Origin: a virus
Virus record (IMG/VR): IMGVR_UViG_3300010883_019551
Span: 1 to 64,000 of that record
Length of the DNA stretch: 64,000 nucleotides
Strand: one strand, 5' to 3'
Shown: positions 2,240 through 38,804 of the stretch, piece by piece
How positions within the stretch are numbered: position 1 is the stretch's first letter
Layout of the letters: every line of letters starts with the position of its first letter
Notes under the pieces: model-generated
What the model was told of the DNA's origin: nothing
The model's database searches: none
The model's input: only the letters and a program-made list of their open reading frames with translations
Made by a program: the position numbers and the translations under genes

Positions 2240-2247
2240 AATACCTC

Positions 2248-3024: not shown

Positions 3025-3301
3025 CAATAGAGGCGCCGAGAGAATTAGCTATAGTAAGAATAGAATTCCGGGTGGTTTTAAGATCGTTTACGACCTGCCT
3101 TATCTCCGGACTATCATAAAAGAGTGGTATTTCTAAAACTTTAGAAATGGACATAACCCTTTCGTCTATCACATCAAGTGACTCCTCTACTGAATCTTGA
3201 ACTTTTAAGATTACTAGACCGAAACGTATACTAAAATAAACACCAACAACCGCTAGCGCAGCCAATGAAATAATTATCACTGTAGACGCTGTTAGACTCA
3301 T
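2969..3301 (-). CDS. Small single-pass membrane protein
   Basis: 110 aa. One hydrophobic segment spans residues 8-32 (STVIIISLAALAVVGVYF and onward), followed by a helical region with the motif RQVVNDLKTTRNSILTIANS and a very acidic tail (DEEEEEID). This is an N-in or N-out single-TM protein with a cytoplasmic-type acidic end. Its ATG overlaps the TGA of the glycosyltransferase upstream, and its 3' end overlaps the sigma-factor gene by 56 bp, so the three are translationally linked. Function unknown. Confidence 0.65.
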   Translation of the reverse strand: MSLTASTVIIISLAALAVVGVYFSIRFGLVILKVQDSVEESLDVIDERVMSISKVLEIPLFYDSPEIRQVVNDLKTTRNSILTIANSLGASIDDDIYADEEEEEIDSQEN

Positions 3302-4467
3302 ACAAATTCCTTTGCGGCTTCGTTATAGGACTCCTGTATTGCAGACGGTGAAAATTTTTCTCTAATTTTCTCTTGAAGCTCTTTAGCCCATCTTGTCGGA
3401 ATATCAGGCTTTTCATAAAACTTTCTTATCTTCTTCTTCGCGTCTTTCTCATCAACAGCTGCCCAACGCGAGCCTTCAACAAATATTTGATTATCAATTC
3501 TTGATGGGTGAATGGGTGCTAAGACATACTCTACCCCTATGAATTTGCCAAGGCCTAAAAAGTCTAGGTGTCCAGACCAGTTGGTTGCTATAACAGGAAG
3601 ACCACTAGCTGCAGCTTCTAGAAGCGGGAGGCCAAAACCTTCACCCCTGGTCAACGATATCATGCCCTTTATCTTTGGGTGCACATATAAGCGCGCTATT
3701 TCTTCTTCAGACATGTTTCCATGAAGTAGATAAATTTTTGGTCCCGGGCTGTCCCCTCTGACCTGTGTGATTAATTGAGTGAGAGTTTTAGATGTTACAG
3801 CCTTGTCTATTTTTGTTGCTCGACCAGAATTAACCTTAAGCACAATACCGACATTTTTATCACCTGCAAATTCTTCACATAACCACTTAACTGTATAGAA
3901 GAGATTTTTTCGGTCATTCTCTGGATTGTTTCCTGTGAATTGACCGAATACTAAAAAATTAAAGTCTGTTTGAAAATCAATATCTAGAGGTTTCAAATCA
4001 GGTGTATCAATTACGTTGTAATAAGACTCAGAAACAACAACAATGGGTGTGGTTAATGCTCCGGATGATAAAAGCACGTTTTTAGTGTGCTGGGATGGTA
4101 CTATGATTAAGTTCATTGAGTTACAATTCTTGATCCATGAAGAATTGCACTTGTCAGTTTCAACAGCAGCTGTGACACCCACATTAAAATTTGCTATATT
4201 TGGGTCCCACTCATTTGGAAGCTGGACCTGAAAAGACACATCATACTTTGGTGTGCCGCTCGGATCTATAGAGCGAGACATTATCTCGCCCACTAAACCC
4301 CCCTTGTCTTCTGTATTAATAAGCCAGGGCGTAGCGCCCCAGGGTAGACATTGAGCTGATACATCAAAGTCATCACGAGAAAGAGCCCATTCGAATATTT
4401 GACGAGAATGAACACCATACCCAGATAGCGTCAAAAGAGGTGCCCTAACTAAAACTTTCTTCTTCAT
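3298..4467 (-). CDS. Glycosyltransferase, GT4 family (GT-B fold)
   Basis: 389 aa, a retaining GT-B glycosyltransferase that would move a sugar from a nucleotide donor. The C-terminal Rossmann domain shows the GT4 donor-site signature TRGEGFGLPLLEAAASGLPV with the conserved E..G..LLEA pattern (about residues 272-292), preceded by a lysine-containing donor strand. The N-terminus starts with an open strand and a glycine-rich acceptor loop (LTLSGYGVHSRQIF). No signal peptide. It abuts a second GT4 gene (gap of 1 bp) and overlaps the small membrane protein by 4 bp. Donor and acceptor cannot be read from the sequence. Confidence 0.85.
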   Translation of the reverse strand: MKKKVLVRAPLLTLSGYGVHSRQIFEWALSRDDFDVSAQCLPWGATPWLINTEDKGGLVGEIMSRSIDPSGTPKYDVSFQVQLPNEWDPNIANFNVGVTAAVETDKCNSSWIKNCNSMNLIIVPSQHTKNVLLSSGALTTPIVVVSESYYNVIDTPDLKPLDIDFQTDFNFLVFGQFTGNNPENDRKNLFYTVKWLCEEFAGDKNVGIVLKVNSGRATKIDKAVTSKTLTQLITQVRGDSPGPKIYLLHGNMSEEEIARLYVHPKIKGMISLTRGEGFGLPLLEAAASGLPVIATNWSGHLDFLGLGKFIGVEYVLAPIHPSRIDNQIFVEGSRWAAVDEKDAKKKIRKFYEKPDIPTRWAKELQEKIREKFSPSAIQESYNEAAKEFV

Positions 4468-4468
4468 C

Positions 4469-5722
4469 TTATATCTCCTTGAGCACCCATGGTTTTCGCT
4501 TATCTTTCCAATTTTCTGCTAGATCTAGAAGTGACTCGTGCCAAAGGTCAATAGTTGTGTCTAGAGAAAATTCTGATTTAACGTACTCACAGGCTTTATC
4601 ACCCAGCACCTTTCTTCCTTCAGGACCCTCTTCGTACATCTGCAACAGTGCATTGGCAACAGTTTCAGCAGAGACATAGTCCTCATAAATGTATGGCACA
4701 TTTTGAGACCCTACTAGCGACTTAAATTCGACATCCAAACCAATTCCATTATGAGACCCATCTCGGTGGTCTTCAACTTGTCGCCAGAGGCCCCCTGTTT
4801 TCGCGGCGATGATAGGTGTACCTGTTTGCATAGCCTCTAATGTTGAGAGGCCAAATCCTTCGGCGTAGCTTATATTAACAACACAGTCTGAAATATTGTG
4901 GAGAATGTTCATCTTTTCAAATTCAACTCTGTCAGGAGAGAAAATGATAGACGTCTCTATTCCCAGCATTTCAGCAGTCGCGTATATGTTGGGCCCTTCC
5001 GGGTCGTCTGGTTGTGTATGAAGAAGAAGGGAGGCTTTTTGATGACCGTGCTTTTCTTGAAGTTTTTCCATAAAAAGCTTCCAAGCCCAAAGAAGATCGT
5101 TTGGTCTTTTCCTCTTGGCATTTCGGTTAACCCAAAAAGCTATAAAGTGATCAGCCCGGTCAGGAGAAACAACCTGCTTCTTAAACTCAAGCTTTTGTTC
5201 CTCGGGTATTGGAAAGAAAAGTTCATTAGGAAGCGCGTGAGGGATAAAGTTTGTTTTGTCCGGGAACATATCTCTAACAAACTTATACGTCATGTAAGAG
5301 TGGCAATTAATAAGATCGGTACTCTCATATAGCACACTATTATAAGATGGAACTGGATGATTATCCCACACGTGCCAGTATGCTATAGGGCAAACCTGAT
5401 GTATTTCATCTTCCATCTCCCACAGCCAGATAAAAAATCTAGGGTCTGTGAATAACAAAAGAATATCAGGTTTTTCTACTGCTAATGTAGTCCTTATGAG
5501 ATTAGGGTCACCAAAGCCATCAATGGGCTTGATAATAAAATCATCATTAATCGAAACAGTTCGATAGTCATTATGCTTTACAGCTGCGCCAAATTGTCTA
5601 ACAGACCAGTGCCCTGGATACTTCCTTAAGAGGCCCTCTATTAGAAATCTAGATTGACACCCTACGCCTGATGTACTCAGGGCGTGATCGGCTAGCATTA
5701 AAATTTTCTTCTTTTGAATCAT
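4469..5722 (-). CDS. Glycosyltransferase, GT4 family
   Basis: 417 aa GT-B enzyme. The N-terminal loop is LSTSGVGCQSRFLIEGL. The donor-binding motif is SYAEGFGLSTLEAMQTGTPI (about residues 280-300), with Glu and Gly as in retaining GT4 enzymes. The basic patch NRNAKRKRPNDLLWAW (about 195-210) resembles the phosphate-binding Arg/Lys region. A ribosome site AAGAAGGT precedes the ATG. It is transcribed just before the adjoining GT4 gene, and the two may add consecutive sugars. Specificity unknown. Confidence 0.85.
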   Translation of the reverse strand: MIQKKKILMLADHALSTSGVGCQSRFLIEGLLRKYPGHWSVRQFGAAVKHNDYRTVSINDDFIIKPIDGFGDPNLIRTTLAVEKPDILLLFTDPRFFIWLWEMEDEIHQVCPIAYWHVWDNHPVPSYNSVLYESTDLINCHSYMTYKFVRDMFPDKTNFIPHALPNELFFPIPEEQKLEFKKQVVSPDRADHFIAFWVNRNAKRKRPNDLLWAWKLFMEKLQEKHGHQKASLLLHTQPDDPEGPNIYATAEMLGIETSIIFSPDRVEFEKMNILHNISDCVVNISYAEGFGLSTLEAMQTGTPIIAAKTGGLWRQVEDHRDGSHNGIGLDVEFKSLVGSQNVPYIYEDYVSAETVANALLQMYEEGPEGRKVLGDKACEYVKSEFSLDTTIDLWHESLLDLAENWKDKRKPWVLKEI

Positions 5723-5809
5723 ACCTTCTTAGTCCATTTTTCGCAGCTATGGTTTCTTTAAGAATATCATAACTGTTCTGTGACAGCAGTAAAAGATATG
5801 TCAAATTCA

Positions 5810-6667
5810 TCACGTGCAATGTTCCGTGTCTTTGAAGTCACAAAACATACATGAATTTCTATTTTTAAGATTGAATTGCTTCTTAACCATTGATATCATG
5901 TTTCTCATTATTTTGAGCACCCTATCTATACTTTTTGGACCAGCAGAAACTTTCACTAACTCACAAATATTACCTGGCTTTGCTCCTCTTTTTAGCAAAA
6001 TAAAACCACATCTAATATCTTTGAGAGGGATGTCATGCTTTTTAGACCAAAAATGTTTGTACAGAATTAACTGTGCTGTCATTAAAATGTCTTGCTTCTT
6101 ATCTCTTCTCCAACCATACGACTGCGCTGTCTTCCAGTCTAAGATCCAATATTGTGCCCCAGCGCCCTTAGTTTTGGGCACTTTAATGATCGCATCTATA
6201 AACCCTTTGAATTTGACATCACTACCTTCTATATCTTCTCTCAACTCTTCCTCGGCCTTTACTACTTCCCAATTAGGGAAAGTCTCGTCTAAAAAGCCGG
6301 GGACTTCATCCCACATATTAGTGGCCCATTCGCACCATTCTTCAACAGGGGCATGTTTATACCATCCTGGCATTTTTTCATACCACTCTGGTTCTCCAAA
6401 CCCATGTTTTTCCCAAGCATCTGTGACATCCTTGAGAATCTTTTCTCGATCAATTGTTTGTGTTTCTAGTAATGTCTCACAACCTTCATGGACTGCAGTG
6501 CCGAAGTCTAAAAACGGTGAGGGCTCAAATACCCTAAGCTTGTCGACGTACAGCAACTTATGTCGCCAGGAGCACTCTTTCCAGTGCTTAACTTCTGAAA
6601 ATGAAATGTGAGACTTTCCGGTTGGTAAGGCCGGTTCTGAATTTTCTACTACACTTTTATTCTGCAT
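5810..6667 (-). CDS. PD-(D/E)XK exonuclease, RecB/Cas4-like with Fe-S cysteines
   Basis: 285 aa. The nuclease core is complete: GTAVHE (56-61), an acidic strand ending GFIDAI (D158), DWKTAQ (177-182) and a Q..LY helix (199-203). Four cysteines are placed as in Cas4/AddB-type 4Fe-4S nucleases: C32 in the first helix, then C273, C276 and C284 near the end (CMFC...C). The protein would cut or resect DNA ends in replication or recombination. It is the one clear DNA enzyme inside the left part of the sugar region, between a GT4 gene and an epimerase gene, with small gaps on both sides (87 bp and 24 bp). There is no CRISPR array or cas1/cas2 nearby, so a CRISPR adaptation role is not supported. Confidence 0.8.
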   Translation of the reverse strand: MQNKSVVENSEPALPTGKSHISFSEVKHWKECSWRHKLLYVDKLRVFEPSPFLDFGTAVHEGCETLLETQTIDREKILKDVTDAWEKHGFGEPEWYEKMPGWYKHAPVEEWCEWATNMWDEVPGFLDETFPNWEVVKAEEELREDIEGSDVKFKGFIDAIIKVPKTKGAGAQYWILDWKTAQSYGWRRDKKQDILMTAQLILYKHFWSKKHDIPLKDIRCGFILLKRGAKPGNICELVKVSAGPKSIDRVLKIMRNMISMVKKQFNLKNRNSCMFCDFKDTEHCT

Positions 6668-6688
6668 GTGCTTATTATACCACGTATT

Positions 6689-7564
6689 CTAAAAATTGAC
6701 ATTCTGAAATTGGTTTAATTTTTGTTTTATATAATCGCTTAAGTCAATAGTAGCTGACCATCCTGTGGCAGCAGATATATCAGCCACATCTGCCAGAGTT
6801 GACCAGGCCTCACCTGGGCGCTTTTCAACGTACTTGACTTCAGATTCGAACATCTTTGTCAACTCATTTATAGAGTAGTTTTTACCAGTACCCAGCTGGA
6901 ATACTTCTGAATTCCAGCTGCCCTTGGCTAGACTTTCGAAACCACTTACAATATCAGATACATGAGTGAAATCTCGCCTTTGCTCCCCTGTTCCTGTAAC
7001 TGTCAAGGGAAAACCGGCTTCACGTTGTTTTTCGAAAACACCCACAACAGTAGCATACGCTCCGGAGGTAGGTTGCCGATCTCCATACACATTGAAAAAT
7101 CTGGCAATAACTGTCGACATGCCATAGACTTTATTGTAGAGTTCACACGTTTGTTCTCCAGTATACTTTGCAAAAGCATATGGGTTGAGCATTGGGCCAG
7201 CGTACGCGGAGCTACTGCCAGCATATATGACTTTCGCGTCGCACCTTCTTGCAAACTCTAAAACATTAGAAGTGCCCATAATGTCTATAGAGAGGTATGT
7301 GAGCGGATCCTTAAAGCTGGGCTGGATTCTGGCTAGCGCAGCGAGATGATAAATCAGATCAAAAGACTCATTTGTATATTTGTATGTGTTAATATTTCTT
7401 ACGTCATCAATCCAGTAAGCTACGTCTTCGCGCATATATGATTTGCTACTAGACTCAGAGCAGAGATTGTCCATCACAGTTACATTATATCCTGCGTCTG
7501 CCAAAGAATCGACAAGATGTGATCCGACAAATCCCAAACCGCCTGTTACTAATATTTTAGTCAT
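6689..7564 (-). CDS. NAD-dependent sugar-nucleotide epimerase/dehydratase (GalE-like SDR)
   Basis: 291 aa from ATG 7564 (a GTG lies one codon upstream). Extended short-chain dehydrogenase fold: NAD motif TGGLGFVGSH (about 7-16), NLC and DVRN cofactor strands, a YAGSSSAYAGP serine region and the YAFAKYTGE Tyr-x3-Lys catalytic pair (about 128-136). The substrate side has RFFNVYGDRQP. The family interconverts or dehydrates UDP- or dTDP-sugars, and UDP-glucose or UDP-GlcNAc 4-epimerase is the nearest functional guess. It overlaps the UDP-sugar dehydrogenase gene upstream, suggesting joint action on UDP-sugars. Confidence 0.85.
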   Translation of the reverse strand: MTKILVTGGLGFVGSHLVDSLADAGYNVTVMDNLCSESSSKSYMREDVAYWIDDVRNINTYKYTNESFDLIYHLAALARIQPSFKDPLTYLSIDIMGTSNVLEFARRCDAKVIYAGSSSAYAGPMLNPYAFAKYTGEQTCELYNKVYGMSTVIARFFNVYGDRQPTSGAYATVVGVFEKQREAGFPLTVTGTGEQRRDFTHVSDIVSGFESLAKGSWNSEVFQLGTGKNYSINELTKMFESEVKYVEKRPGEAWSTLADVADISAATGWSATIDLSDYIKQKLNQFQNVNF

Positions 7565-8420
7565 CACTCACTGCCCTTCCTGACATTGACTCCCAGTCCC
7601 TGTCAGATCTCAAATAGTTGTTCTTTTCTTGAACTGACTCTAAAAGGTCAGCATCAACACTGTGCTGGGCACCATAATAAATCATGGCTGCCAGATCTTT
7701 GGGAAAGCAGTGCCCACCAAAACCAAAATCGCCATCTGGCCCTGGGACAGTCAAGTGGCTCTTGCCTATTCTGTCATCGTATAGCGCATACTCGCATATT
7801 TTATCATAGTCTACTCCGCCGGCGTTACATATTTGATACATTTCATTGGCAAATGTTACCTTGGTCGCCAAGAAGCAATTAATAAAATACTTTGTCATTT
7901 CTGCTGTTTCTCGTTTTGTAATTACAATGGGAATTGACGGAAAAGCTTTCCTAAACATGCTCTTAACTTTCTTGGCATAGTTGCATTTGACATTAACATC
8001 GCCGCCGATTATAATTCTAGTTTGATTTTTGAAGTCATCAAAAGAATTAGCCTCGGTTAAGAATTCAGGACTAAAAACTACAGGACACACTGAAGCGCAT
8101 GCATCCGCAATTCTAGAGGTTGTGCCGGGCGGAACTGTTGACTTCAAAACTAGAACTGGGCGATTCATATTCGGATCAGAGCATGCTGACTTATCAATTC
8201 CGGTGACAACAGATTCTAAAAGACGAGTATCGCATGCGCCTGACTTTCTCATGGGGGTTGGAATACAAACAAAAATAATGTCTGAGTTTCGACAAACCTC
8301 TTCATGCGTGCTATTACATTTAGATTCGTCGATATCATAAGTCAATACGGTGTGATAATCCTTAAGACCCTCTCTAATTGCTGAGCCTACAAAGCCTTGT
8401 CCTACTATGCCAACTTTCAT
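7557..8420 (-). CDS. UDP-glucose/GDP-mannose dehydrogenase family, short form
   Basis: 287 aa. NAD motif GIVGQGFVGSAI at the N-terminus, then CIPTPMRKSGACD and KSTVPPGTTSR. The middle helix TAEMTKYFINCF is typical, and the catalytic cysteine is C238 in GGHCFPKD. These enzymes oxidise a UDP-hexose twice to the uronic acid. Family members are usually 390-450 aa; this one ends soon after the catalytic cysteine and lacks most of the C-terminal UDP-binding domain. It is followed, with overlap, by the epimerase gene and preceded by a second dehydrogenase of the same shortened type. Activity may need a partner. Confidence 0.85.
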   Translation of the reverse strand: MKVGIVGQGFVGSAIREGLKDYHTVLTYDIDESKCNSTHEEVCRNSDIIFVCIPTPMRKSGACDTRLLESVVTGIDKSACSDPNMNRPVLVLKSTVPPGTTSRIADACASVCPVVFSPEFLTEANSFDDFKNQTRIIIGGDVNVKCNYAKKVKSMFRKAFPSIPIVITKRETAEMTKYFINCFLATKVTFANEMYQICNAGGVDYDKICEYALYDDRIGKSHLTVPGPDGDFGFGGHCFPKDLAAMIYYGAQHSVDADLLESVQEKNNYLRSDRDWESMSGRAVSDD

Positions 8421-9289
8421 TTCTCACCGCCCCTCGCGCGTATTCTTCTAATTCTTTCGTTAGATCTCAAAACTTCTTTTATAAGTTCTGCTGTATATCC
8501 ATGTTTTTCTGCAGTCAAAACTAGAGCATTTGTGTCTTTGGGTAAACATTTTCCGGAGAATGGAGCTTTGTTTTCTGGGAATACTGCTGTATGCATCGGA
8601 TTTATTCTGGGGTCTAAGAGCCACAGTTCTCTCACTTCATTGTAGTCAATATCCATTGCTGTGCAGATCTCACTCATTTCGTAACAGAACACTATTTTGG
8701 ATGCATAAAAAATGTTCTCCATATACTTTGCCATTTCTGCAGCATCTGATGTGGTCTGACGATATGTTTTCGTGGGTCCCACAACTGGCATATAAAGATC
8801 TACAAACGCGCTAGTATCTTTGGGTTCTCCGCCAAAAGTAAAGAACGGTGTGCACTTAACATCAGTATGAAAGTCATAGGGAGTCCAGTATGAAGACTCA
8901 CCACAATATTCAGGAGAAAATACTATTCTCTTTTGGTATAAATTTCTGAGTCTACTAGTAGTTCCAACAGAAACGGTAGACTTAATAAGGATTAGCGGCG
9001 TTTTTAGCCATTGTATGGCATCTTCTACAAGACTAGAATCACATTCTCCGGCTTGGTCTGCGGGAGTGGGAACACAAATAATTCCATAATCACATGTATT
9101 TATCTCTTCTCTTTTGACAAACGATACATTGTTGTGCGGTTCAATATCGTCAATATCGTGAAAATTAGTATCAATATCTTCCGGGTCATAAGCAGGATCA
9201 TAAACTAATACGTCATAATGACTTTGAAAAAATCTTGTCATGGCTTTTCCCACGTACCCGTAGCCAATAATTCCAATACTCTTTGTCAT
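8417..9289 (-). CDS. UDP-glucose/GDP-mannose dehydrogenase family, second short form
   Basis: 290 aa, a divergent paralogue of the next gene. NAD motif GIIGYGYVGKAM at the start, CVPTPADQAGECD, KSTVSVGTTSRL, the helix DAAEMAKYMENIF, and catalytic C248 in FSGKCLPKDTNA. Like its neighbour it stops before the C-terminal domain seen in typical 400-aa enzymes. It overlaps both neighbouring genes by 4 bp. The two short enzymes may form a heteromer or act on different UDP-sugars; the sequence cannot decide this. Confidence 0.85.
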   Translation of the reverse strand: MTKSIGIIGYGYVGKAMTRFFQSHYDVLVYDPAYDPEDIDTNFHDIDDIEPHNNVSFVKREEINTCDYGIICVPTPADQAGECDSSLVEDAIQWLKTPLILIKSTVSVGTTSRLRNLYQKRIVFSPEYCGESSYWTPYDFHTDVKCTPFFTFGGEPKDTSAFVDLYMPVVGPTKTYRQTTSDAAEMAKYMENIFYASKIVFCYEMSEICTAMDIDYNEVRELWLLDPRINPMHTAVFPENKAPFSGKCLPKDTNALVLTAEKHGYTAELIKEVLRSNERIRRIRARGGEK

Positions 9290-9930
9290 TTCTTCTCCTG
9301 AAGCATTTCATCGTACTTCTTTACTTCTTCTATATTATTCGTTCTGTTGCGACTGTGTATTCTGTAGCGATACATGGGCATTGGCAAGTGAAATAGCTTA
9401 AACTTTTTTAGAAATCTGCTAATGAGATCATGACCTTCTCGCATTTTATAGTCTTCATCATAAAAATTAATATCACATAGGGACTCGTAGGTAAACATAA
9501 CAGCACATGCTATGGGGGCTTCCTTACCCGAGCAATTTTCTACTAAAACACCCACCTCATCAACTTTATTATAGTCACATGAAATAGCCTGATAGCTTCT
9601 GTTCATGTCTAAAAATCTGGACATTGTTTCTAAGAAGTATTTAGAAACATAATCGTCGCTGTCAACACGTACAAAATATCTGCCTCTAGCAACCTTGAGA
9701 ATTTTATTGAGAGATGCTGGTAAGCCTGTATTCTTTTCATTGTTCAGTAAACGAATGTTAAGATCACTTCTCATATTATTGCAAACATCTTCGAGGCGAG
9801 TACCCGGTTCGTCATTGATAATAACTACTTCAAATTTATCTTTTGATAGCGTCTGACTAGACAGACTACGCAGGCATCTATACAACCATTCTTTCTGTTT
9901 ATAACAGCATATGCCTACTGTGATCTTCAT
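9286..9930 (-). CDS. Glycosyltransferase, GT2 family (GT-A fold)
   Basis: 214 aa, one GT-A domain. It begins with the usual strand and first Cys/Tyr loop (VGICCYKQKEWLYRCLRSL), then EVVIINDEPGT, and carries a DSDDY metal-binding motif (about residues 98-102). The C-terminal HSRNRTNN may contact the acceptor. No membrane segments, so it works at the cytoplasmic side on a soluble or lipid-linked acceptor. It overlaps the hydroxyacid dehydrogenase gene upstream by 4 bp. Confidence 0.85.
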   Translation of the reverse strand: MKITVGICCYKQKEWLYRCLRSLSSQTLSKDKFEVVIINDEPGTRLEDVCNNMRSDLNIRLLNNEKNTGLPASLNKILKVARGRYFVRVDSDDYVSKYFLETMSRFLDMNRSYQAISCDYNKVDEVGVLVENCSGKEAPIACAVMFTYESLCDINFYDEDYKMREGHDLISRFLKKFKLFHLPMPMYRYRIHSRNRTNNIEEVKKYDEMLQEKK

Positions 9931-10844
9931 ACCGATAAGGATCTCTTTGCTAAATCGAGAGTCGTCAAGAGGGCCTTTGTTTGGCTCTCTTTGGTTGCAC
10001 CTGCTATATGAGGTGTAATTACAACTCTATCTGACCTTTTTGACAATACTAAAATGGGGGACTTCTTAAGTCTGGGTATATTTTGTTCATTTCTTAGAAC
10101 ATCAGCACCATAAAGTATACCCCAGTCTTTGACTAAAGTAACTATATAGTCTTCGTCGACGACTTCGCCTCTAGAGGTGTTTACCACAACAGTCCCCGGC
10201 TTTATATTATCCCAGACTCCCGGTCTGATCATGCTCATTGTTTCACTTGTGAGAGAACAATTAATAGAAATGATATCACAATCCCCTATTTGTCTTAGAC
10301 TCTTGACTGATGTGTATGACATGTTAGTTACATAAGGATCATAGAAGCACACCTTCATTCCGAAAGTCTTTGCGTATTTTGCAACTTTTGTTCCAATTCT
10401 GCCAAGGCCTACTATTCCAATAGTCTTTCCATGGAGTTCGTGAGACCTTAAAAAGAGTTCGTTAGTATTAGATCTCCAACCGGCAGTGGCGTTTACAGCA
10501 TTGGTAAACTTTCTAGTCAAATTCATTATGTGTAGCCAGGTAAACTCTGCTGAAGCATGAATATCTTTTAGTGACTTCTTGTTGTCTAAGAGGCATACAA
10601 CACTAACCCCCTTGGCAATTAATGAGCTAACATCAATGTGGTTTGTACCGGTGGAAGGTGTGCCAACAACGGACAAATTTTTATAATCATCAAAGTAGCT
10701 TGTATCTAAAAACTCACTAGTCCCGGGATTGACAATTACAACTTGTGGATCTTCTGTACACAGGGTCATACCCTTTTCTAGAAGAATTTTGTCTAACTCT
10801 TGGTGCTCAAAAAAATTAACTGGGCATTCTAGCTTGACCCTCAT
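9927..10844 (-). CDS. D-2-hydroxyacid dehydrogenase (phosphoglycerate dehydrogenase-like)
   Basis: 305 aa. NAD(P)-binding motif GIVGLGRIGTKVAKYAKTFG (about 143-162), VNTSRGEVVDED with the catalytic Arg, and PHIAGATKES with the catalytic His near the C-terminus. The family reduces 2-keto acids or oxidises D-2-hydroxyacids. It lies between a GT2 gene and a CMP-sugar synthetase gene, so the substrate is more likely a sugar-derived keto acid than serine biosynthesis intermediates (inference). It overlaps both neighbours by 1-4 bp. Confidence 0.85.
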   Translation of the reverse strand: MRVKLECPVNFFEHQELDKILLEKGMTLCTEDPQVVIVNPGTSEFLDTSYFDDYKNLSVVGTPSTGTNHIDVSSLIAKGVSVVCLLDNKKSLKDIHASAEFTWLHIMNLTRKFTNAVNATAGWRSNTNELFLRSHELHGKTIGIVGLGRIGTKVAKYAKTFGMKVCFYDPYVTNMSYTSVKSLRQIGDCDIISINCSLTSETMSMIRPGVWDNIKPGTVVVNTSRGEVVDEDYIVTLVKDWGILYGADVLRNEQNIPRLKKSPILVLSKRSDRVVITPHIAGATKESQTKALLTTLDLAKRSLSV

Positions 10845-12249: not shown

Positions 12250-12290
12250 ATATTCTTACCTTCTTGATTATAAACTGCAGTTGCATCGTT

Positions 12291-14380: not shown

Positions 14381-14382
14381 AA

Positions 14383-19007: not shown

Positions 19008-19045
19008 CTTTAATTCCTTGTATACACATCAGTTGCGCTCATATC

Positions 19046-19051
19046 ATTATA
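19046..19051 (-). promoter_or_regulatory. Candidate -10 box upstream of the kdsA-like gene
   Basis: The 39-bp gap before the kdsA-like gene is one of the wider ones in the cluster. A perfect TATAAT overlaps the stop of the upstream gene; no convincing -35 box is present. It may be an internal promoter or chance in AT-rich DNA. Confidence 0.25.
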
Positions 19052-27241: not shown

Positions 27242-27242
27242 T

Positions 27243-28349: not shown

Positions 28350-28361
28350 GGTTACCTTCGA

Positions 28362-29444: not shown

Positions 29445-29448
29445 TGTT

Positions 29449-31242: not shown

Positions 31243-32177
31243 TGATTCAATAGAATATTTGTGTATTCTTTTGCTGCTTCAGAAAATTCTCTAAACGGAG
31301 AAGTAAAACCCGCCCTTCTTAGATTTGTAATGTCTGCCTTTGTGTATGACTGGTATTTGTCTTTGAGTTTTTCCGGGAAAGGAACAGTTTTAATTTTAGC
31401 CTCTGTAACAGAAGATACTATTTTTGCTGCATCCATGAAAGAGTTTGTTTCACCTGATCCGCAATTATAAATCCCTACAAATTCTGATTTTCTCATGAAG
31501 TGCATGTTAATCTTGACAATATCATCAATGTGAACAAAATCTCTCAAATAATTCTCACTTCCTTCGAAGACGTTTATTGCCTTGTTTTCTATTGCCTGTC
31601 TTGTGAACTGATTTATTGGTGAAGCCATGCCCTCTTTGTGATCTTCTCCGGGGCCATAAACATTAAAATATCTTAGTCCAACAATCTGTACGTTAGAATC
31701 AAAGCTATAGTTTCTTCTAAAGTAATTGTCAAACTCGAGTTTTGATTTTCCGTATACATTAAGCGGATTTTCGCAATCCACGTCTGCTTCAAACCCTTTG
31801 TCACCCAATCCGTAAACAGCAGCAGAGGATGCATAGATCATTCTAATATCATGTTCCATACAATGATGAAATATACCCACTGATAACGTGTAATTGGTGT
31901 CCATCATTTCATCATCATCTGGGTGTGTTGTGTCAGTTATGGCCCCTTGATGAAATATCGTTTCAATGTTTCCTATATCACAGAACTTTCCATTTTTGAT
32001 GGACTCAAGACACTTATCTTTTTCGATAATATCTTTGTAGGTACAACCCACTAGATTATTTTCACTGCCGTTTTTGGGGGAGTCAATAATATAAATGTTT
32101 TTGTAGTTCAGATCATTTAGTTTGCGAACAATGTTTGATCCTACAAATCCCATTCCGCCTGTTACAATAATACTCAA
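31239..32177 (-). CDS. hldD: ADP-L-glycero-D-manno-heptose 6-epimerase
   Basis: 312 aa, the usual length. NADP motif VTGGMGFVGSNIVRKLND at the start, NLVGCTYKD, IFHQGAITDTT, YASSAAVYG, and NVYGKSKLEFD with Tyr-x3-Lys (about 139-143); RYFNVYGPGEDHK follows. It converts ADP-D,D-heptose to ADP-L,D-heptose, the donor for LPS inner-core heptose. It stands between the adenylyltransferase and a GT9 heptosyltransferase, completing an ADP-heptose arm. Confidence 0.9.
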   Translation of the reverse strand: MSIIVTGGMGFVGSNIVRKLNDLNYKNIYIIDSPKNGSENNLVGCTYKDIIEKDKCLESIKNGKFCDIGNIETIFHQGAITDTTHPDDDEMMDTNYTLSVGIFHHCMEHDIRMIYASSAAVYGLGDKGFEADVDCENPLNVYGKSKLEFDNYFRRNYSFDSNVQIVGLRYFNVYGPGEDHKEGMASPINQFTRQAIENKAINVFEGSENYLRDFVHIDDIVKINMHFMRKSEFVGIYNCGSGETNSFMDAAKIVSSVTEAKIKTVPFPEKLKDKYQSYTKADITNLRRAGFTSPFREFSEAAKEYTNILLNQ

Positions 32178-33007
32178 TTCAATTTACTCCTTACAGACTC
32201 TAGTATTTCAATTGGGTCATGTTTCTGAGCCTCTGAGTTGCAATGATGACAATGTGTCTTCATTCCACACGGTCCGTGGTTTTTACCTACCCATATGTTT
32301 GTATTTTGTGGGTAACATGTCATAGTGGGATGAATGAAGCCAGTATAGAGAATGACCGCCGGCGTGTCGACAGCATTTGCTGCATGCATTAAGCCTCCCT
32401 CAGATGAGACAAATAGGCGTGAGTGTTTAATAATCATTGCTGCTTCTCTAAAAGTTGTCTTTCCGGTTAGATTGACAACTCCTGACAGTGTTTTGTCTTT
32501 GGTCTCTCTTCCGACCTGAACTAAAATGTGGCCGTCTTTGATTAGTTCGTCTGCTACATACTGCCACTTTTCAATAGGGTACTTCTTATTAACAGTATAC
32601 TCATCATTTGATTGAGGCTCTATGACTATGTAACGTTTAAGATGATCCCAGTGTTTTCTAACACTTTGTACCTCATCATCACTAAAGTATAATTCACACT
32701 TGAGCTCCGGGTTCTTCACACCATAGAACTCACAAATTTGCTGTATTATGTGACAATCATGTCGATGTACAGCCCTTTGAGGCGTGTCTTGTTTGCAATA
32801 GTTTGTTCGAGGATTATTTAGCTGCATTGGAATAGCAGTGTTATTGTCAAATTCTTGAAGAATATACGGATTATTTTCAAATATTGGCGTTCGTACCGGC
32901 TTGATTAAATTTCCATGTTGCTCGAACGGAAATACTTTTCCGATGCCGGTCGACTGTACTAGTTCTCTAGCAACTGCAGTCCATGTAAGATAACCGCCTA
33001 ACCCCAT
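32174..33007 (-). CDS. GT9-family heptosyltransferase
   Basis: 277 aa. The N-terminus begins MGLGGYLTWTAVARELVQS (a glycine loop as in WaaC/WaaF). The donor half has IVIEPQSNDEYTVNKKYP, HILVQVGRETKD, VNLTGKTTFREAAMII and FVSSEGGLMHAANAVDTPA (about 204-222), the GT9 signature. A Cys/His-rich end (CGMKTHCHHC) may bind metal. It should transfer heptose from the ADP donor made by the next genes. Shorter than typical 320-350 aa. Overlaps both neighbours. Confidence 0.85.
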   Translation of the reverse strand: MGLGGYLTWTAVARELVQSTGIGKVFPFEQHGNLIKPVRTPIFENNPYILQEFDNNTAIPMQLNNPRTNYCKQDTPQRAVHRHDCHIIQQICEFYGVKNPELKCELYFSDDEVQSVRKHWDHLKRYIVIEPQSNDEYTVNKKYPIEKWQYVADELIKDGHILVQVGRETKDKTLSGVVNLTGKTTFREAAMIIKHSRLFVSSEGGLMHAANAVDTPAVILYTGFIHPTMTCYPQNTNIWVGKNHGPCGMKTHCHHCNSEAQKHDPIEILESVRSKLN

Positions 33008-33924
33008 TTTCCCCTCAAGACGCTTTCATATTTGTCAGCAACAATCTCTATGTTTAGATGTCTATGATCTACATCAATTATATCTGGTAAAACAACATTG
33101 GTCAAATCAATATTCGGTGGTGACGTGTAGTCTGTCAACCTATAATCGTACTCTTCTGTCTCTGGCACAATTATACCTGATGCTTTTACTATTTCTTTAG
33201 TTCCACCTGAGCTGCTACATATAACAGGACAGTTTTGTGATAGTGCCTCTACTACTACATTGGGACAATGATCTAGCCACGCTAAATGAATCATCCAGTC
33301 TGCAGCATAGAAAATTTGCAAGCACAATTCATGCGGAATATTACCCGTGTACACAATGTTTTCTTTTTTGACAATATGATCAGGGTTACTTCCCATTACA
33401 ATTAGATAACATTTCTTTTCCGGATTTTCAGATTCATATTTTAGAAATAAATCTGTGTTATCACGCAGTCTTTTCTGGCCGTGCCAATTAGAAGAACATA
33501 CAAATATAACATCATATGTGTTTCGAATATTTTTTAAGTTATCGTCAGAAACTCTGGTCTCTACAAGATCTATACCATTTGCTATGATAGAACCGGTTCT
33601 GCTTCCCCAGTGATTAAACGTCATATTTTTATCAAACTGTGTTTGCCATATTACATGGTGACAATTATCATATGACCATCTTATTCCTCTGTTCTTTGTA
33701 TGAAACTCTTCAGGGGAGAACCAAATTCCGTCTAGTCTTTGCAAAAATTTTGCACCTTTTCGTGGGTGAGAAGCAGGTTCTATAAAAGCTAAAAAAGTTT
33801 CGTAATCATCGTCGGGACCGACAAATTCGACTCCTCTTTTCTGAAGATTCAGTGCTAGGCGGTGTGCAAAAGAATTAGGACCGGATCTAGATTGGAAGTC
33901 TACATTTGAGAAATGAACCTTCAT
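32998..33924 (-). CDS. Glycosyltransferase, GT4 family
   Basis: 308 aa. Begins HFSNVDFQSRSGPNSFAHRLA, the GT4 acceptor loop. Donor half: FVCSSNWHGQKRLRDNTDLF, VYTGNIPHELCLQIFYAADW and HLAWLDHCPNVVVEALSQNC (about 216-235), where the Glu of EALS is the conserved donor residue. It overlaps the GT9 and methyltransferase genes. Specificity unknown. Confidence 0.85.
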   Translation of the reverse strand: MKVHFSNVDFQSRSGPNSFAHRLALNLQKRGVEFVGPDDDYETFLAFIEPASHPRKGAKFLQRLDGIWFSPEEFHTKNRGIRWSYDNCHHVIWQTQFDKNMTFNHWGSRTGSIIANGIDLVETRVSDDNLKNIRNTYDVIFVCSSNWHGQKRLRDNTDLFLKYESENPEKKCYLIVMGSNPDHIVKKENIVYTGNIPHELCLQIFYAADWMIHLAWLDHCPNVVVEALSQNCPVICSSSGGTKEIVKASGIIVPETEEYDYRLTDYTSPPNIDLTNVVLPDIIDVDHRHLNIEIVADKYESVLRGKWG

Positions 33925-34646
33925 GGCATTGCCGGCGAATTATAGAATTTTATAAAGAATTGAGCACTAGGGGTTTTGTTATGTTCTCCCCATAATGACT
34001 TTGATGTTCTAGAGACCTGTGTTATCTGGAATGTCTTTGAAAGCCTTTCATACGCGAACTTAGGTTTCACCACCAATGAGACTCCAAGCTCTTCCCAGAA
34101 TTCACCAGATTCAACGTAGTCAGCTTCTGGTTCGCGCTCGTTGATTGCCATGTACAGTATACCACATCCTGCAGGTTTTAACACTCTTTCGATCTGGGAA
34201 ATATAAAATTCTGCTTCTGCCCAATGAGAGAAATGTTGAAATACTATAAAACTATAGACAAAGTCAATTGAATTATCTTCAATACTTTCAATGTTATCTC
34301 GGTGAACTAGCTCAAAATTATTGCATCCCTCTCTCTTAAGAATTTCTTCGGTGCGATCAAAGCTCTCGTGGATATCAACCCCAACTACTTTCCCAAAGTA
34401 ATTGCTAGCAGCATTTAATAGACGACCGCCGCCGAATCCAATTTCTAAAGCTGTCTTATCACGAGGGTCCCCAAGGATAGAATAAAAATCAGAAGTAAAT
34501 ATTCTATGTGAAAAATCTATAAATCCATGTTTTAGAGCATTAGAAACTGAGTCATCAATGTCAAAAAAGTTGTGAAATTCAGCTTCGTTTTCTAAGACAG
34601 ACGGACCTTTTGTCCAAACATCTTTCACTCTTTTAATATCACGCAT
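33921..34646 (-). CDS. Class I SAM-dependent methyltransferase
   Basis: 241 aa. SAM motif I ALEIGFGGGRLLNAASNYFG (about 64-83), motif II VVGVDIHESF, and motif IV DFVYSFIVFQHF, then VLKPAGCGILYMA. Methyltransferase_11/25 type; likely O- or N-methylates a sugar. It is one of three methyltransferases in a row (with 34639 and 36080) near the GT2 gene. Confidence 0.85.
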   Translation of the reverse strand: MRDIKRVKDVWTKGPSVLENEAEFHNFFDIDDSVSNALKHGFIDFSHRIFTSDFYSILGDPRDKTALEIGFGGGRLLNAASNYFGKVVGVDIHESFDRTEEILKREGCNNFELVHRDNIESIEDNSIDFVYSFIVFQHFSHWAEAEFYISQIERVLKPAGCGILYMAINEREPEADYVESGEFWEELGVSLVVKPKFAYERLSKTFQITQVSRTSKSLWGEHNKTPSAQFFIKFYNSPAMP

Positions 34647-35364
34647 CTGGGTCCTTGAGATTTTCGTCAGTTAAGTGCCGATTTTTCCTTGGTGTTCCCT
34701 TTCTGCACAAAATATTGATTCTGTCTGGATTAGCTATATCTTCATGATCATCTGATGTTTCTATGACATTCCATCCTGCGATATCCAGCATTGACTTGCA
34801 TGCTAATTTAGACGGATGGAATACACATGTTTGTGCTCTGTCTGCCGGAGAGTACGGTGGGTAGTGGACTTCAATAATATTCTTGTCCATGAGCTCTTCA
34901 GTTCTAGTGGTAGAGCTTTCAAATATCATATACGCGCCGTCGGCTGCTAGATCATACAATCTTTGGAGTTGTCCCATTTGATTAATGTTGTGATAGATAA
35001 CACCGGCATAAAAAATAAGGTCGTATTTGTCTTCACTTATGTATCGATCAAAATCCTGGTAGTGTACCTCAAACTTTTCTGTCTTAACGTGTGGTATCCA
35101 CATTCTATTTTCTCTAAGATATCTTTCATTTGACCTTAGCTTATTGGGACCTTCGACGCAAGTTATACTTTTTGGCTCATGGGCATCAATCAACACAGTA
35201 TGAAGACCATGCTTCGGTCCTACTTCAAAAAAATTGCAGTCGCTACAATCAATCTCAACATTACATAATGCTCTTTGAGCAAAGATCCATGTGTCGCCGC
35301 CCTCCATCTTTTTTGTAACTTCTGCGCTGCCCTGTACAAATAGGTTGTCTTTCTCAAACTTCAT
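34639..35364 (-). CDS. Methyltransferase-like protein
   Basis: 241 aa. SAM-binding-like FFEVGPKHGLHTVLIDAHEP (about 45-64), CVEGPNKLRSNERYL as motif II, and DLIFYAGVIYHNINQMGQLQ (about 115-134) as in DUF1698/CmoB-like enzymes. It therefore belongs to the class I SAM fold, although the first glycine motif is altered (EVGPKHG). Overlaps both neighbours. Substrate unknown, probably a sugar. Confidence 0.7.
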   Translation of the reverse strand: MKFEKDNLFVQGSAEVTKKMEGGDTWIFAQRALCNVEIDCSDCNFFEVGPKHGLHTVLIDAHEPKSITCVEGPNKLRSNERYLRENRMWIPHVKTEKFEVHYQDFDRYISEDKYDLIFYAGVIYHNINQMGQLQRLYDLAADGAYMIFESSTTRTEELMDKNIIEVHYPPYSPADRAQTCVFHPSKLACKSMLDIAGWNVIETSDDHEDIANPDRINILCRKGTPRKNRHLTDENLKDPDA

Positions 35365-36083
35365 TTCACAAATCCTCGCGATCTTAGATACTCACCCTCT
35401 GTCTTCTGAAACTTGGCATCGTCAGTTTGAAATGTCAAAGGGTTCATGTCAATAGTATAGTGGTACGCAACGATAGGCTCAAAATGCCAGTTGCCGGCGG
35501 ACTGGTGTAACACGGGCAAATATATTGCTTGATCACCTATGCGCTTAAAGTACTCACCATCAGCAGACCTAAAATTTTCGTCTTTGACACGTTCTATTAC
35601 ACTCTTCTTAAATGTTTTGAAGTGTGAGCTTACCCATTGATGTTCATAGGGATTAGCATCTCTTGGTAGCGGCGCTGATATGTTTTGATTTGTAAATGCC
35701 CAACGATGTTTGGTCCACAAAACATTACATCCAGTAGTTCTGTATCTATGATCGATTATAGTTAATGCATCTGAATCGCAGAGCCAGTCATCTCCATCAA
35801 GTCGACAAACAATATCATTTGTTTCACATTCTTCGAGGGACTCTAGAATATTTCTAACTTCCCACTTCTTTTCTGTATTAGTTGTTAATGATATTTGATC
35901 GTTAGAGAGACCAAAGTTTTTCTTAAAGTGTTCTACAGCTACTCTAGTTTTATCGGTTGACATATCATCTTTGATAATGATCTTCCAATTAGGATAAGTT
36001 TGTGACCAAACAGACAATAATGTACGACTAATAGTTTCTTCTGCATTAAATGCCGGCATGATAAAGACAAACCTATTACTCAT
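35361..36083 (-). CDS. Glycosyltransferase, GT2 family
   Basis: 240 aa from the ATG at 36081-36083, which overlaps the TGA of the previous gene (ATGA). GT-A motifs: FIMPAFNAEETISRTLLSV at the start, IIIKDDMSTDKTR, CRLDGDDWLCDSDAL (about 94-108, DxDD metal site), and a C-terminal HQSAGNWHF region. An inverting transferase that uses a nucleotide sugar and divalent metal. Acceptor unknown. Confidence 0.85.
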   Translation of the reverse strand: MSNRFVFIMPAFNAEETISRTLLSVWSQTYPNWKIIIKDDMSTDKTRVAVEHFKKNFGLSNDQISLTTNTEKKWEVRNILESLEECETNDIVCRLDGDDWLCDSDALTIIDHRYRTTGCNVLWTKHRWAFTNQNISAPLPRDANPYEHQWVSSHFKTFKKSVIERVKDENFRSADGEYFKRIGDQAIYLPVLHQSAGNWHFEPIVAYHYTIDMNPLTFQTDDAKFQKTEGEYLRSRGFVK

Positions 36084-36883
36084 TTTTTCACCAAATATCT
36101 TTCGACCCATGGGCCGCCTTCATGTGTTCTATTGGAAAGAGACAAAATAATAAATCCCACATCCCGTAACATGTGTGCCATATCTCTTTCATGAAATGGA
36201 AACATATGAGCAAATTCTAATCTTGGAATTCCGGGCTCTACAGGAATTTCTACATGAAAATAAGCATCAGCATCCATGGCGTCATATACTTTCTGAAGTG
36301 CTATAAGTGGATCTGATAAGTGTTCTAGCATGTGGTAAGAAACAACTAGCGATGCACCCTTCAGATCTAGAACTTCAGAACAATTATTAAAGTCGTATTT
36401 TCGTCCATCATAGCCCATTTTTTCTGTTACACCTATGCTTAAAGGTGTCACATCATATCCCCATGCTGGTACACTGAGCTTTTCTCCATAGTGTTTCATT
36501 AGTCTCGGAACTCTAAATCCCAACTCCACAAACCCGGAATGACTTACCTTTCCAAGATTAACCTCTAAAGAGCGCCACGTGTCTTCTAGCTCATTAATTC
36601 TTACTTGATCGGCACTGTTTAGTTTCATGACTTCGTCTATCTGAGACATCACATTCTCTAAAGTGTCGTTTTCGTATATTGCTAGACTTCTAGAAGACTG
36701 TAGATCAATGTACACATCATTATCAATTCTTTCGTAGCATTGACGTGTTCCAAATGAATACTTTCGCTCAACTAGTGAGAAATTTTTGTTTGATCTAGTT
36801 TCTGACCAATTATTCTGGCCCTTGAGTGATACTAGTCTGTTAACTTCTTCTCGTAAGGACTCAAAGACTGTCTCTTTACTCAT
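36080..36883 (-). CDS. Class I SAM-dependent methyltransferase
   Basis: 267 aa. The C-terminal two thirds contain GFVELGFRVPRLMKHYG (motif I, altered), GYDVTPLSIGVTEKMGYDG and SLVVSYHMLEHLSDPLIALQ (about 181-200), the typical post-motif of Methyltransf_23 enzymes, then FHVEIPVEPG. The first 110 residues are helical and may form a dimer or acceptor-binding region. Its start lies within the end of the large bifunctional transferase gene. Confidence 0.75.
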   Translation of the reverse strand: MSKETVFESLREEVNRLVSLKGQNNWSETRSNKNFSLVERKYSFGTRQCYERIDNDVYIDLQSSRSLAIYENDTLENVMSQIDEVMKLNSADQVRINELEDTWRSLEVNLGKVSHSGFVELGFRVPRLMKHYGEKLSVPAWGYDVTPLSIGVTEKMGYDGRKYDFNNCSEVLDLKGASLVVSYHMLEHLSDPLIALQKVYDAMDADAYFHVEIPVEPGIPRLEFAHMFPFHERDMAHMLRDVGFIILSLSNRTHEGGPWVERYLVKK

Positions 36884-38804
36884 TGCTTCCGAAATCCATT
36901 ACTGATGGGTGATTCGTTTTAAGTGTTAGATGCGGTGTAGGCTTAGAGAAATCAATCGGGGCATGGAATATCCACCCACCCATTTCATTAGCTAGCTTAG
37001 CCGACAATTCTTTAATATCTTCGTCTGTAACTTCTGACCATGGACGTCCAAAGAACAAATTGTTGTCTGCAGTATCTTCTTGCTGAATATCGTACAGACT
37101 CTGCCAATGCTGTGACCAGTAGTCTCTGTAAGTTCTGATCTTTCTAGGGAGATCAAACCAAGAGTAGTGATGTACACTCGGAAGTAATTGAGTGCAATTA
37201 TCAAACCACTCTTCGTATTGATCCTTGACTTCGTTATTCCCAGCTAAGGCTTGCACTCTAGCTACATGGGTCTCGTTAGTATAGAAACTAGCATGAGGAA
37301 TTACTTCATATGTTTGATTATGGATGTAATCACACCCATCAGTTCCCATCTGTGCGTAGAGATTTCCATCAGAGTCAGTTTTCTGAAGTTGTTTTGGTAT
37401 CCCATGGGTGATATGTGGCATATTTCTGGATAATCGCCACTTCCACGGGTTGACATCCATTCTAACCTTTTCTTCGCCGCCCCAGTACTCGATCACAGGC
37501 AGTGCTATTAAATCAACTTGGCCTGGGAATGCTGAGCAGAGATTACGTATCTTATCATAATCATTCTCATGGACAACCTCATCAGCATCTTGCTGCCATA
37601 GGAAATCCATAGTGCATCTTTTTCTAGCCTCAGCCTTTTGGGCACCATCGAAGACCGCAAACCTGGGATGATCCCAGTCTCTCTCTACAAGATGCACTTT
37701 AAGCTTGTCTTCTGTTTCTGACCAAGCTTGAAGATCCTCATAAGTTCCGTCGTCTGAACCACCGTCAACAATAACTACTTCATCACAGAATCCCAAAAGA
37801 GACTTGATTGACTGTTTCCATGGGTACTGATGTCTGTTGCAGTTAAATGTCGTTGTATAACCGCTGATAGAAGGTGTCCAGTTCATGTCTTGCTTAATTG
37901 TCTCCCAAAAGCGTCCTCGCGCCGCGTAAAGATATGCCTCTGTGTCAAAAGGATCGTCGGTATTAAACCAAATTTCATCCTTGTGTTGAACATTATCATT
38001 TAGATGAAGTTCGCACCCTAGCATCTGAGCTTCAATAACCATACGTGGGCATGTATCCCAGCCGGCTGGAAGATAAACAAAACCCTGGGCTTGAACTAAC
38101 TTCTCAAGTACTTGTTCATAAGGAAGACCCCAGACAACTTCATAGTCTTTATTGGTATCTTTACACCACTGTTCAGCTGCATCGGCTCCTTTGACCCAGC
38201 TAGTTGAGCCTAAAACGATCCAACCTTTTCGCTCAACATCTTTGTATTTTTCTTTAAGAACGTTAACTGCAGCAAAATATCTGTCATCAAAGACAGAGCT
38301 GAGGACAACATTATTCTTCTCTTCTAGAAAGGGAAATGTTTTATGATAGTGGTACATCTGAGCTTCAGACATCCACCAGAGCGAACGGGCACCAAACATA
38401 AATGCAGATATCATTTTACCATGCATCGATTCATTATCATCACAAGGCTTGCCTTCGATATTCTCATGCTTCTGAGGTGATCTCCACTTGCAATACTTGT
38501 AGTCATACTCAAGCATGGAATAAGAGATATTTGCCACAATTGTCGGAATCAACTCATGTTTCATGTGTGAGTAATTACCGAAAATCCAATGACAATTTTG
38601 ACCCTCTTCAAGCAGCTCAAGAGACACATCCCTAGCTCTAAGTTTGTGAATATTAAATGGACACTTCTCAATGAGTGCCTCTGAGGTCAGCTCAGCTCCT
38701 CCTACATAGTCCTCAACGAACATGTCTGAGACGAAAACTATTTCTGTTCCATCTGGTAAGCTGGCTTCTTGTTTCTGGTCAAATGGGCTCTGATTTCCGA
38801 ACAT
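36876..38804 (-). CDS. Two-domain glycosyltransferase (GT-B plus GT2)
   Basis: 642 aa, the first gene transcribed in the sugar cluster. Residues about 20-310 form a GT-B-like unit: VSDMFVEDYVGGAELTSE, WIVLGSTSWVKGADAAEQW and FVYLPAGWDTCPRMVIEAQM (about 237-256). Residues about 318-600 form a GT2 unit: SGYTTTFNCNRHQYPWKQSI, VVIVDGGSDDGTYEDL (about 345-360) and FLWQQDADEVVHEND (metal site). The enzyme could add two sugars in sequence. A 207-bp non-coding stretch upstream contains a candidate promoter. Confidence 0.75.
   Translation of the reverse strand: MFGNQSPFDQKQEASLPDGTEIVFVSDMFVEDYVGGAELTSEALIEKCPFNIHKLRARDVSLELLEEGQNCHWIFGNYSHMKHELIPTIVANISYSMLEYDYKYCKWRSPQKHENIEGKPCDDNESMHGKMISAFMFGARSLWWMSEAQMYHYHKTFPFLEEKNNVVLSSVFDDRYFAAVNVLKEKYKDVERKGWIVLGSTSWVKGADAAEQWCKDTNKDYEVVWGLPYEQVLEKLVQAQGFVYLPAGWDTCPRMVIEAQMLGCELHLNDNVQHKDEIWFNTDDPFDTEAYLYAARGRFWETIKQDMNWTPSISGYTTTFNCNRHQYPWKQSIKSLLGFCDEVVIVDGGSDDGTYEDLQAWSETEDKLKVHLVERDWDHPRFAVFDGAQKAEARKRCTMDFLWQQDADEVVHENDYDKIRNLCSAFPGQVDLIALPVIEYWGGEEKVRMDVNPWKWRLSRNMPHITHGIPKQLQKTDSDGNLYAQMGTDGCDYIHNQTYEVIPHASFYTNETHVARVQALAGNNEVKDQYEEWFDNCTQLLPSVHHYSWFDLPRKIRTYRDYWSQHWQSLYDIQQEDTADNNLFFGRPWSEVTDEDIKELSAKLANEMGGWIFHAPIDFSKPTPHLTLKTNHPSVMDFGSNE

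Follow-up and report, generated by a model that had tools for sequence, protein, structure and literature searches.

The window analysed here comprises bases 1-64000 of the IMG/VR virus record IMGVR_UViG_3300010883_019551 (79,699 bases), and nearly all of its genes lie on the minus strand. At 3298-38804 it carries an island of 40 open reading frames (ORFs) in 35.5 kb that share the minus strand. Coding density is about 1.00, and neighbouring genes mostly overlap, by between a few and 59 bases. By Pfam and NCBIfam families, nearly all 40 genes belong to nucleotide-sugar synthesis, glycosyl transfer or tailoring, which bears out the original prediction of more than 30 consecutive sugar genes on one strand. 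A PD-(D/E)XK nuclease (5810-6667) is the exception in function, and the genes at 14383, 23284, 24482 and 28362 have no family. The island genes, named below by their lower coordinate, are as follows (GT, glycosyltransferase; Kdo, 3-deoxy-D-manno-octulosonic acid; SAM, S-adenosylmethionine):

3298-4467 (-), bookend GT4 glycosyltransferase A, in all relatives (Pfam PF00534)
4469-5722 (-), bookend GT4 glycosyltransferase B, in all relatives (Pfam PF00534)
5810-6667 (-), bookend PD-(D/E)XK nuclease, in all relatives (Pfam PF12705, E 1.5e-20)
6689-7567 (-), NAD-dependent sugar epimerase/dehydratase (Pfam PF01370, E 5e-44)
7557-8420 (-), nucleotide-sugar dehydrogenase, UDP-glucose dehydrogenase type (TIGR03026, above cut-off)
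8417-9289 (-), nucleotide-sugar dehydrogenase-like (Pfam PF00984)
9286-9930 (-), GT2 glycosyltransferase (Pfam PF00535, E 4e-21)
9927-10844 (-), D-2-hydroxyacid dehydrogenase (Pfam PF02826)
10844-11542 (-), CMP-nonulosonate cytidylyltransferase-like, PseF-like (TIGR03584, E 2e-45, under cut-off)
11539-12249 (-), NeuB-type nonulosonate synthase, short (Pfam PF03102, E 3e-32; PDB sialic acid synthase, E 1e-22)
12291-13574 (-), DUF4910/DUF2172 M28-like peptidase-fold protein (Pfam PF16254, E 8e-99)
13559-14380 (-), FkbM methyltransferase (TIGR01444, above cut-off)
14383-15138 (-), ORF without family (no Pfam match), conserved in contig G001
15135-16136 (-), GmhA-like phosphoheptose isomerase (SIS) with a C-terminal extension, possibly a HAD phosphatase (PDB phosphoheptose isomerases, E 1e-4; TIGR00441, E 1e-8)
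16123-16815 (-), HpcH/HpaI aldolase (Pfam PF03328)
16812-17564 (-), MptE-like, possible Maf-type CMP-sugar transferase (Pfam PF01973, E 4e-12; top PDB match 5mu5, E 0.6, not significant)
17506-18228 (-), CMP-sugar (Kdo/nonulosonate) cytidylyltransferase (Pfam PF02348)
18219-19007 (-), KdsA, Kdo-8-phosphate synthase (NF003543, 244.4 bits against a cut-off of 242)
19047-19706 (-), CMP-sugar cytidylyltransferase (Pfam PF02348)
19703-20506 (-), GT29 sialyltransferase-motif protein (Pfam PF00777, E 4e-11; PDB 6apj, E 3e-4)
20507-21553 (-), FAD-dependent oxidoreductase (Pfam PF01266)
21550-22401 (-), GFO/IDH/MocA oxidoreductase (Pfam PF01408)
22401-23315 (-), GT4-like glycosyltransferase (Pfam PF13692, weak)
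23284-24504 (-), ORF without family (Pfam scan)
24482-25603 (-), ORF without family (Pfam scan), 41% identical to an island gene of contig G003
25613-27253 (-), carbamoyltransferase (Pfam PF16861, E 9e-64)
27243-28349 (-), UDP-galactopyranose mutase (TIGR00031, above cut-off)
28362-29444 (-), ORF without family (Pfam and NCBIfam scans)
29449-29829 (-), cupin (Pfam PF07883)
29786-30124 (-), capsule-type HAD phosphatase (TIGR01689, E 6e-12, under cut-off)
30114-30896 (-), HldE kinase half (TIGR02198, E 9e-45, under cut-off)
30850-31242 (-), HldE adenylyltransferase half (TIGR02199, E 8e-47, under cut-off)
31239-32177 (-), HldD ADP-heptose 6-epimerase (TIGR02197, 330 bits against a cut-off of 274.6)
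32174-33007 (-), GT9 heptosyltransferase-like (Pfam PF01075; TIGR02195, E 1e-11; TibC model, E 9e-6)
32998-33924 (-), GT4 glycosyltransferase (Pfam PF13692)
33921-34646 (-), SAM methyltransferase (Pfam scan)
34639-35364 (-), SAM methyltransferase-like (Pfam and NCBIfam scans)
35361-36110 (-), GT2 glycosyltransferase (Pfam PF00535, E 2e-17)
36080-36883 (-), SAM methyltransferase-like (Pfam scan)
36876-38804 (-), bookend two-domain glycosyltransferase (Rossmann N half plus GT2 core), about 640 aa, in 9/9 complete islands (family and profile comparison)

KdsA, HldD, UDP-galactopyranose mutase, FkbM and the nucleotide-sugar dehydrogenase lie above the curated NCBIfam cut-offs, and three genes of the island carry the Pfam domain CTP_transf_3. 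Pfam matches also include GT1/GT4 domains, a PfkB kinase and CTP_transf_like. The ADP-heptose arm is complete by family (GmhA-like isomerase, split HldE, capsule-type phosphatase and HldD, plus the GT9 transferase), with HldD over its equivalog cut-off and the other steps under theirs; the phosphatase of the pathway would be either 29786 or the C-terminal part of 15135. In the nonulosonate arm, a synthase and a CMP-transferase are present, with no recognisable upstream steps of the PseB/C/H or NeuC type. The large heteropolysaccharide pathway that had been predicted, with nonulosonate, Kdo, heptose and galactofuranose (Galf) arms, is upheld. Gene order suggests that two CMP-sugar synthetase genes are paired with possible CMP-sugar transferases adjoining them: 17506 with the MptE-like 16812, and 19047 with the GT29-motif 19703. 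AlphaFold models of the MptE-like protein (2 sequences) had a mean pLDDT of 34, too poor for a reading of the fold. From these families, we infer that the cassettes of the window supply ADP-heptose, CMP-Kdo, a CMP-nonulosonate-type sugar, UDP-Galf and a uronic acid, and then transfer, methylate, oxidise and carbamoylate them. A search for a donor of the UDP-galactopyranose mutase in 84,980 species genomes gave a best identity of 59%, with matches scattered over Clostridia, Bacteroidota, Bacilli and spirochaetes; at this distance and scatter, no recent donor or host is visible.

The setting of the island became clear from its relatives. Scans of IMG/VR with the PrkA-like protein and the 2248 protein of the window yielded 46 and 24 loci, respectively, spread over numerous samples, and in many contigs the two genes stand in the same order, 24-50 kb apart. 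Nine independent contigs contain a whole island, and in each it occupies the same position, with fibre-like genes on one side and a baseplate-type block on the other. These islands range from 7.9 kb with seven genes (G021) to 36.1 kb with 40 genes (G008), and within each island all genes share one orientation. Grouped by blastp at E<1e-30 and 60% coverage, their 256 genes fall into 148 families, 110 of which occur in one contig only. Four families are found in 9/9 islands: the two GT4s (3298, 4469), the PD-(D/E)XK nuclease (5810) and the two-domain glycosyltransferase (36876). UDP-glucose dehydrogenase and the epimerase, considered as further core genes, are absent from some islands. The window is collinear with G001 from the flank to 23315; it has its heptose/carbamoyl cassette in common with G003 and G008, and its oxidoreductase cassette with G008, while other islands carry sulfotransferase, DegT aminotransferase, radical SAM (with B12 domain), sulfatase and NTP-transferase genes. 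Four conserved genes frame an interior that is replaced cassette by cassette.

The genes of this island are in use. Between the window and its nearest relative, G001, the ratio of non-synonymous to synonymous change (pN/pS) is 0.06-0.28 in all 27 shared genes, with synonymous sites mostly saturated, and island and flank genes share one common range. Such values indicate strong purifying selection, which argues that the island genes are used and are not filler. The comparison very probably describes a fixed, exchangeable and functional locus for glycan synthesis.

On either side of the island lie the following genes:

248-1858 (-), conserved baseplate-region protein, with a homologue in Flavobacterium phage immuto beside its baseplate block (E 5e-10), in 10/10 island-bearing relatives
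1862-2239 (-), small conserved protein (comparison with relatives and immuto)
2248-3027 (-), conserved protein (immuto homologue, E 9e-32)
2969-3301 (-), small protein with a transmembrane (TM)-like segment at its N-terminus (relatives and hydropathy)
39012-50026 (-), two long fibre-like genes of 1487 and 2183 aa (size, variability and weak matches to Pelagibacter phage structural proteins)
50746-52053 (-), PhoH (phrog_2765, E 6e-97)

The original prediction had named a gp55 sigma factor on one flank and fibre genes on the other. The supposed sigma factor (2248-3027) is a conserved gene, but its identity as gp55 is unsupported, with no significant match in Pfam, PHROG or PDB and an E=0.4 in an hhalign profile comparison with T4 gp55. 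The genes at 39012-50026 likely encode fibres, given their length, variability and weak Pelagibacter phage matches, which fall short of proof. An immuto block that runs into an annotated baseplate wedge gene (wedge E 5e-105) is homologous, with the same gene order, to block 248-3027 together with the genes coming after it in relatives. A DNA-level search of window positions 1-20000 against known phages gave no match.

Relatives of 235-255 kb were read. G008 (242 kb, syntenic) contains a T4-type terminase, portal, prohead protease and major capsid protein by PHROG, none of which was identified in the window's own partial contig. The portal of G008 is 42-44% identical to those of Microcystis phage Mel-JY01 and immuto over about 55-65% of its length. 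The T4-type head genes in a relative, together with the immuto-like collinear flank, place the sugar block in a phage genome, as had been predicted; both flanks are phage and are kept in independent contigs. The lineage is one of large T4-type marine phages. The locus also has the feature that marks a host recognition cluster (HRC): a hypervariable island with probable fibre genes and glycosyltransferases in the structural region.

Starting at the right-hand end and following transcription, the order of genes in the window is DUF444, SpoVR, PrkA/YeaG, a GroEL-like gene, a transfer-messenger RNA (tmRNA), an FtsZ-like GTPase, PhoH, the two fibre-like genes, the sugar block and block 248-3301. 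The row of PrkA/YeaG, SpoVR and DUF444 (57471-61938, minus strand) is kept across the lineage, and PrkA is shared with Thermus phages as well as with uncultured phages of about 600 kb. The diverged GroEL-like protein (55752-57185, minus strand) matches a PHROG chaperonin (E 1e-11) and has no Pfam match. The one-piece tmRNA at 53709-54071 (minus strand; Rfam RF00023, 116.8 bits) encodes the tag ANNDNYEYALAA; tmRNAs with differing tags, close to the same neighbours, are present in G002, G004, G008, G009, G013 and G021. The GTPase of the FtsZ/tubulin superfamily (52435-53640, minus strand) has a GGGGGTGS motif, is 61-80% conserved among relatives and matches FtsZ structures by profile (E 5e-9). 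Between it and PhoH lies a 96-aa ORF in the rare plus-strand orientation (52150-52440), found in six contigs, which by eye looks like the helix-turn-helix of sigma region 4. A strand-specific motif, ATA[CTG]TTA[TA], stands 10-50 bases upstream of portal, sheath and other genes in G002, G003, G007, G008 and other contigs; it occurs in 104/580 upstream regions compared with 19 on the reverse strand and about 22 in shuffles, and is a candidate late promoter of the lineage.

By hydropathy, the island proteins have at most one TM-like segment each. Profile searches, for which 9-13 of 14 control genomes were positive, detected no flippase Wzx (PF01943; 13 controls positive), no polymerase Wzy (PF04932; 9 controls positive) and no initiating transferase of the WbaP/WecA type (PF02397, PF00953) in 16 contigs; these contigs are fragments, and the absence is strongest for the islands themselves. 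Both approaches agree with the earlier remark that no wzx/wzy-like multi-TM proteins are visible. The lack of export genes fits cytoplasmic assembly on protein as well as extension of the lipid A-core at the inner membrane face; the protein- or core-linked glycan deduced from it in the original prediction agrees with the lineage-wide data, although the argument does not choose between virion protein and the core of host lipopolysaccharide (LPS).

We favour virion proteins as the acceptor, with host LPS close behind, but sequence cannot decide between them. In this model, glycan assembly by the transferases would take place in the cytoplasm, with structural proteins of the phage (fibres or baseplate) as the direct acceptors, the conserved glycosyltransferases would make common first or core steps, and the exchangeable cassettes would give virions a variable, serotype-like coat. 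Virion protein is put first because no lipid-linked step is encoded, because the neighbours of the island are fibre-like and baseplate-type genes, because the heptose and Kdo pathways are carried in full by the phage although a Gram-negative host that relies on these sugars would have its own, and because virion glycoproteins have been detected in the T4-like jumbo phage XacN1 (PMC5852040). An island assigned to flagellin-type cytosolic glycosylation would have a Maf-type transferase together with nonulosonate genes; here, a PF01973 domain is found in 16812-17564, with a non-significant PDB match to Maf (E 0.6). Several points weigh against glycosylation of the virion. Heptose, Kdo and GT9 are typical features of an LPS core, and for the export of such a core host MsbA alone would suffice. 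Adjacency to fibre and baseplate genes is not general, since in immuto a distance of 20-40 kb separates them from the sugar genes. The candidate late-promoter motif was not seen, judged by eye, upstream of the island in nine contigs. A Foldseek search with the AlphaFold model of the ~640-aa glycosyltransferase (mean pLDDT 59) matched only the common GT2 core, with the peptide S-glycosyltransferase SunS ranking first. The full statement, an exchangeable functional island at a fixed tail/baseplate locus whose glycan is built on virion proteins, comes out at nearly even. A stronger version is rather unlikely: a serotype locus, in which a fixed slot with exchangeable cassettes would furnish each virus with its own heteroglycan coat, carried on fibres or baseplate and made without a lipid carrier, by analogy with O-antigen switching in bacteria, but on the virion.

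The leading alternative, which we regard as a serious if less probable contender, is that the island remodels host LPS during infection. At the inner membrane face, phage transferases would lengthen or cap lipid A-core or O-chain. The product would then be exported by the host, through MsbA or its O-antigen machinery, and the changed surface would block superinfection or free progeny from receptor-laden debris. This alternative stays close because the sugars are LPS-like (genes for ADP-heptose, CMP-Kdo, a GT9 heptosyltransferase-like protein and UDP-Galf are all present) and because it is the published view of the related pelagimyophage and P-SSM2 clusters (PMC7029224, PMC2984593); furthermore, core extension needs no phage flippase. 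However, lipid-linked steps are not encoded, and Pfam scans of the island turned up no Kdo transferase family of the WaaA or KpsC/S type. A Gram-negative host using heptose and Kdo would presumably already make both, leaving the phage copies needless unless the host lacks them.

That the sugars modify phage DNA, glycosylating hypermodified bases against restriction, is improbable. Phage glycosyltransferases are known to act on DNA (discussed in PMC12619734), and base-modification genes could lie elsewhere in the genome of this partial contig. However, the interior of the island varies almost completely between relatives. Nonulosonate, Kdo, heptose and methyl/carbamoyl tailoring are not known from DNA either. 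Non-functional stuffer DNA, a possibility raised for cyanophage LPS clusters (PMC3037559), would agree with the very variable gene content and size, but is made highly improbable by intact frames, dense coding, low pN/pS in all shared genes and conserved bookends. A host/phage chimera can be dismissed: the sugar genes look bacterial by family, but no evidence for a chimera was found, nine independent contigs keep both flanks and 27 genes are collinear with G001.

Finally, we would like to place the island among known systems. The original prediction that such a cluster is unusual for phages overstates the case for T4-like marine phages, where precedents exist in P-SSM2, S-SSM7 and pelagimyophages (PMC2984593, PMC3037559, PMC7029224). 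The HRC of pelagimyophages (mean 44.6 kb) and cyanomyophages is likewise a large non-syntenic island in a T4-like structural region, with tail fibres, glycosyltransferases and LPS-type genes including rfaE and UDP-glucose dehydrogenase (PMC7029224). It belongs to other phage lineages, whereas the island here has fixed bookends (nuclease, GT4 pair, ~640-aa glycosyltransferase) and consists almost entirely of sugar genes. The HRC sits between VrlC and the neck gene gp14, while our island is placed only relative to the baseplate-type block; HRC hosts are SAR11 or picocyanobacteria, and the only tie to Pelagibacter here is a weak fibre-gene match. The T4-like cyanophages P-SSM2, S-SSM7 and S-SM2 also carry large LPS clusters (24 LPS genes in P-SSM2; 72-85% of the extra genome in S-SSM7 and P-SSM2), and one P-SSM2 cluster lies near phoH, as the island does (PMC2984593, PMC3037559). 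Their function was left open as possible stuffer DNA, whereas selection is evident here, and none of 50,697 phage records matches the ~640-aa bookend.

The anchor of nuclease and GT4 pair is also present in the cultured phages immuto (MW353176; nuclease, GT4 B, GT4 A, then about 10 sugar genes) and Mel-JY01 (PP395634; nuclease, GuaB, a split GT4 B, GT4 A, then sugar genes). Both differ in their smaller clusters of about 10 sugar genes without annotated heptose or Kdo arms, and in immuto these stand apart from fibre and baseplate genes. A further sugar cluster with an anchor is present in an uncultured phage of 484 kb (LR756508.1, 285432-326742), where nuclease and GT4 B are followed at about 16 kb by NeuB and GT29-motif proteins. 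In Rhodothermus phage RM378, the GT4 pair stands alone, followed by ribonucleotide reductase; this distribution suggests that the pair predates the island that surrounds it. Synechococcus phage S-SCSM2R (PQ898602, 244 kb) shares KdsA/KdsB and many glycosyltransferases, but they are mixed with photosynthesis genes, its KdsA is only 39% identical and the bookend glycosyltransferases are unmatched. Moraphages are large aquatic phages with four glycosyltransferase groups in their core genome, but mostly freshwater with predicted Bacteroidota hosts, and the available part of their description (PMC12619734) reports no sugar island.

Large sugar clusters in T4-like marine phages are already known; the new elements are the lineage, an exchange locus with bookends, how broad the pathway is, the lineage-wide lack of export genes and the evidence of selection. 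For the large LPS clusters of T4-like marine phages, the literature had left both function and stuffer DNA as possibilities (PMC3037559); for this lineage at least, the selection test speaks for function. The bookends are the first genes of interest for functional work, and since a cultured marine Flavobacterium phage has the anchor genes too, whether virion or host surface is the acceptor can be tested at the bench.

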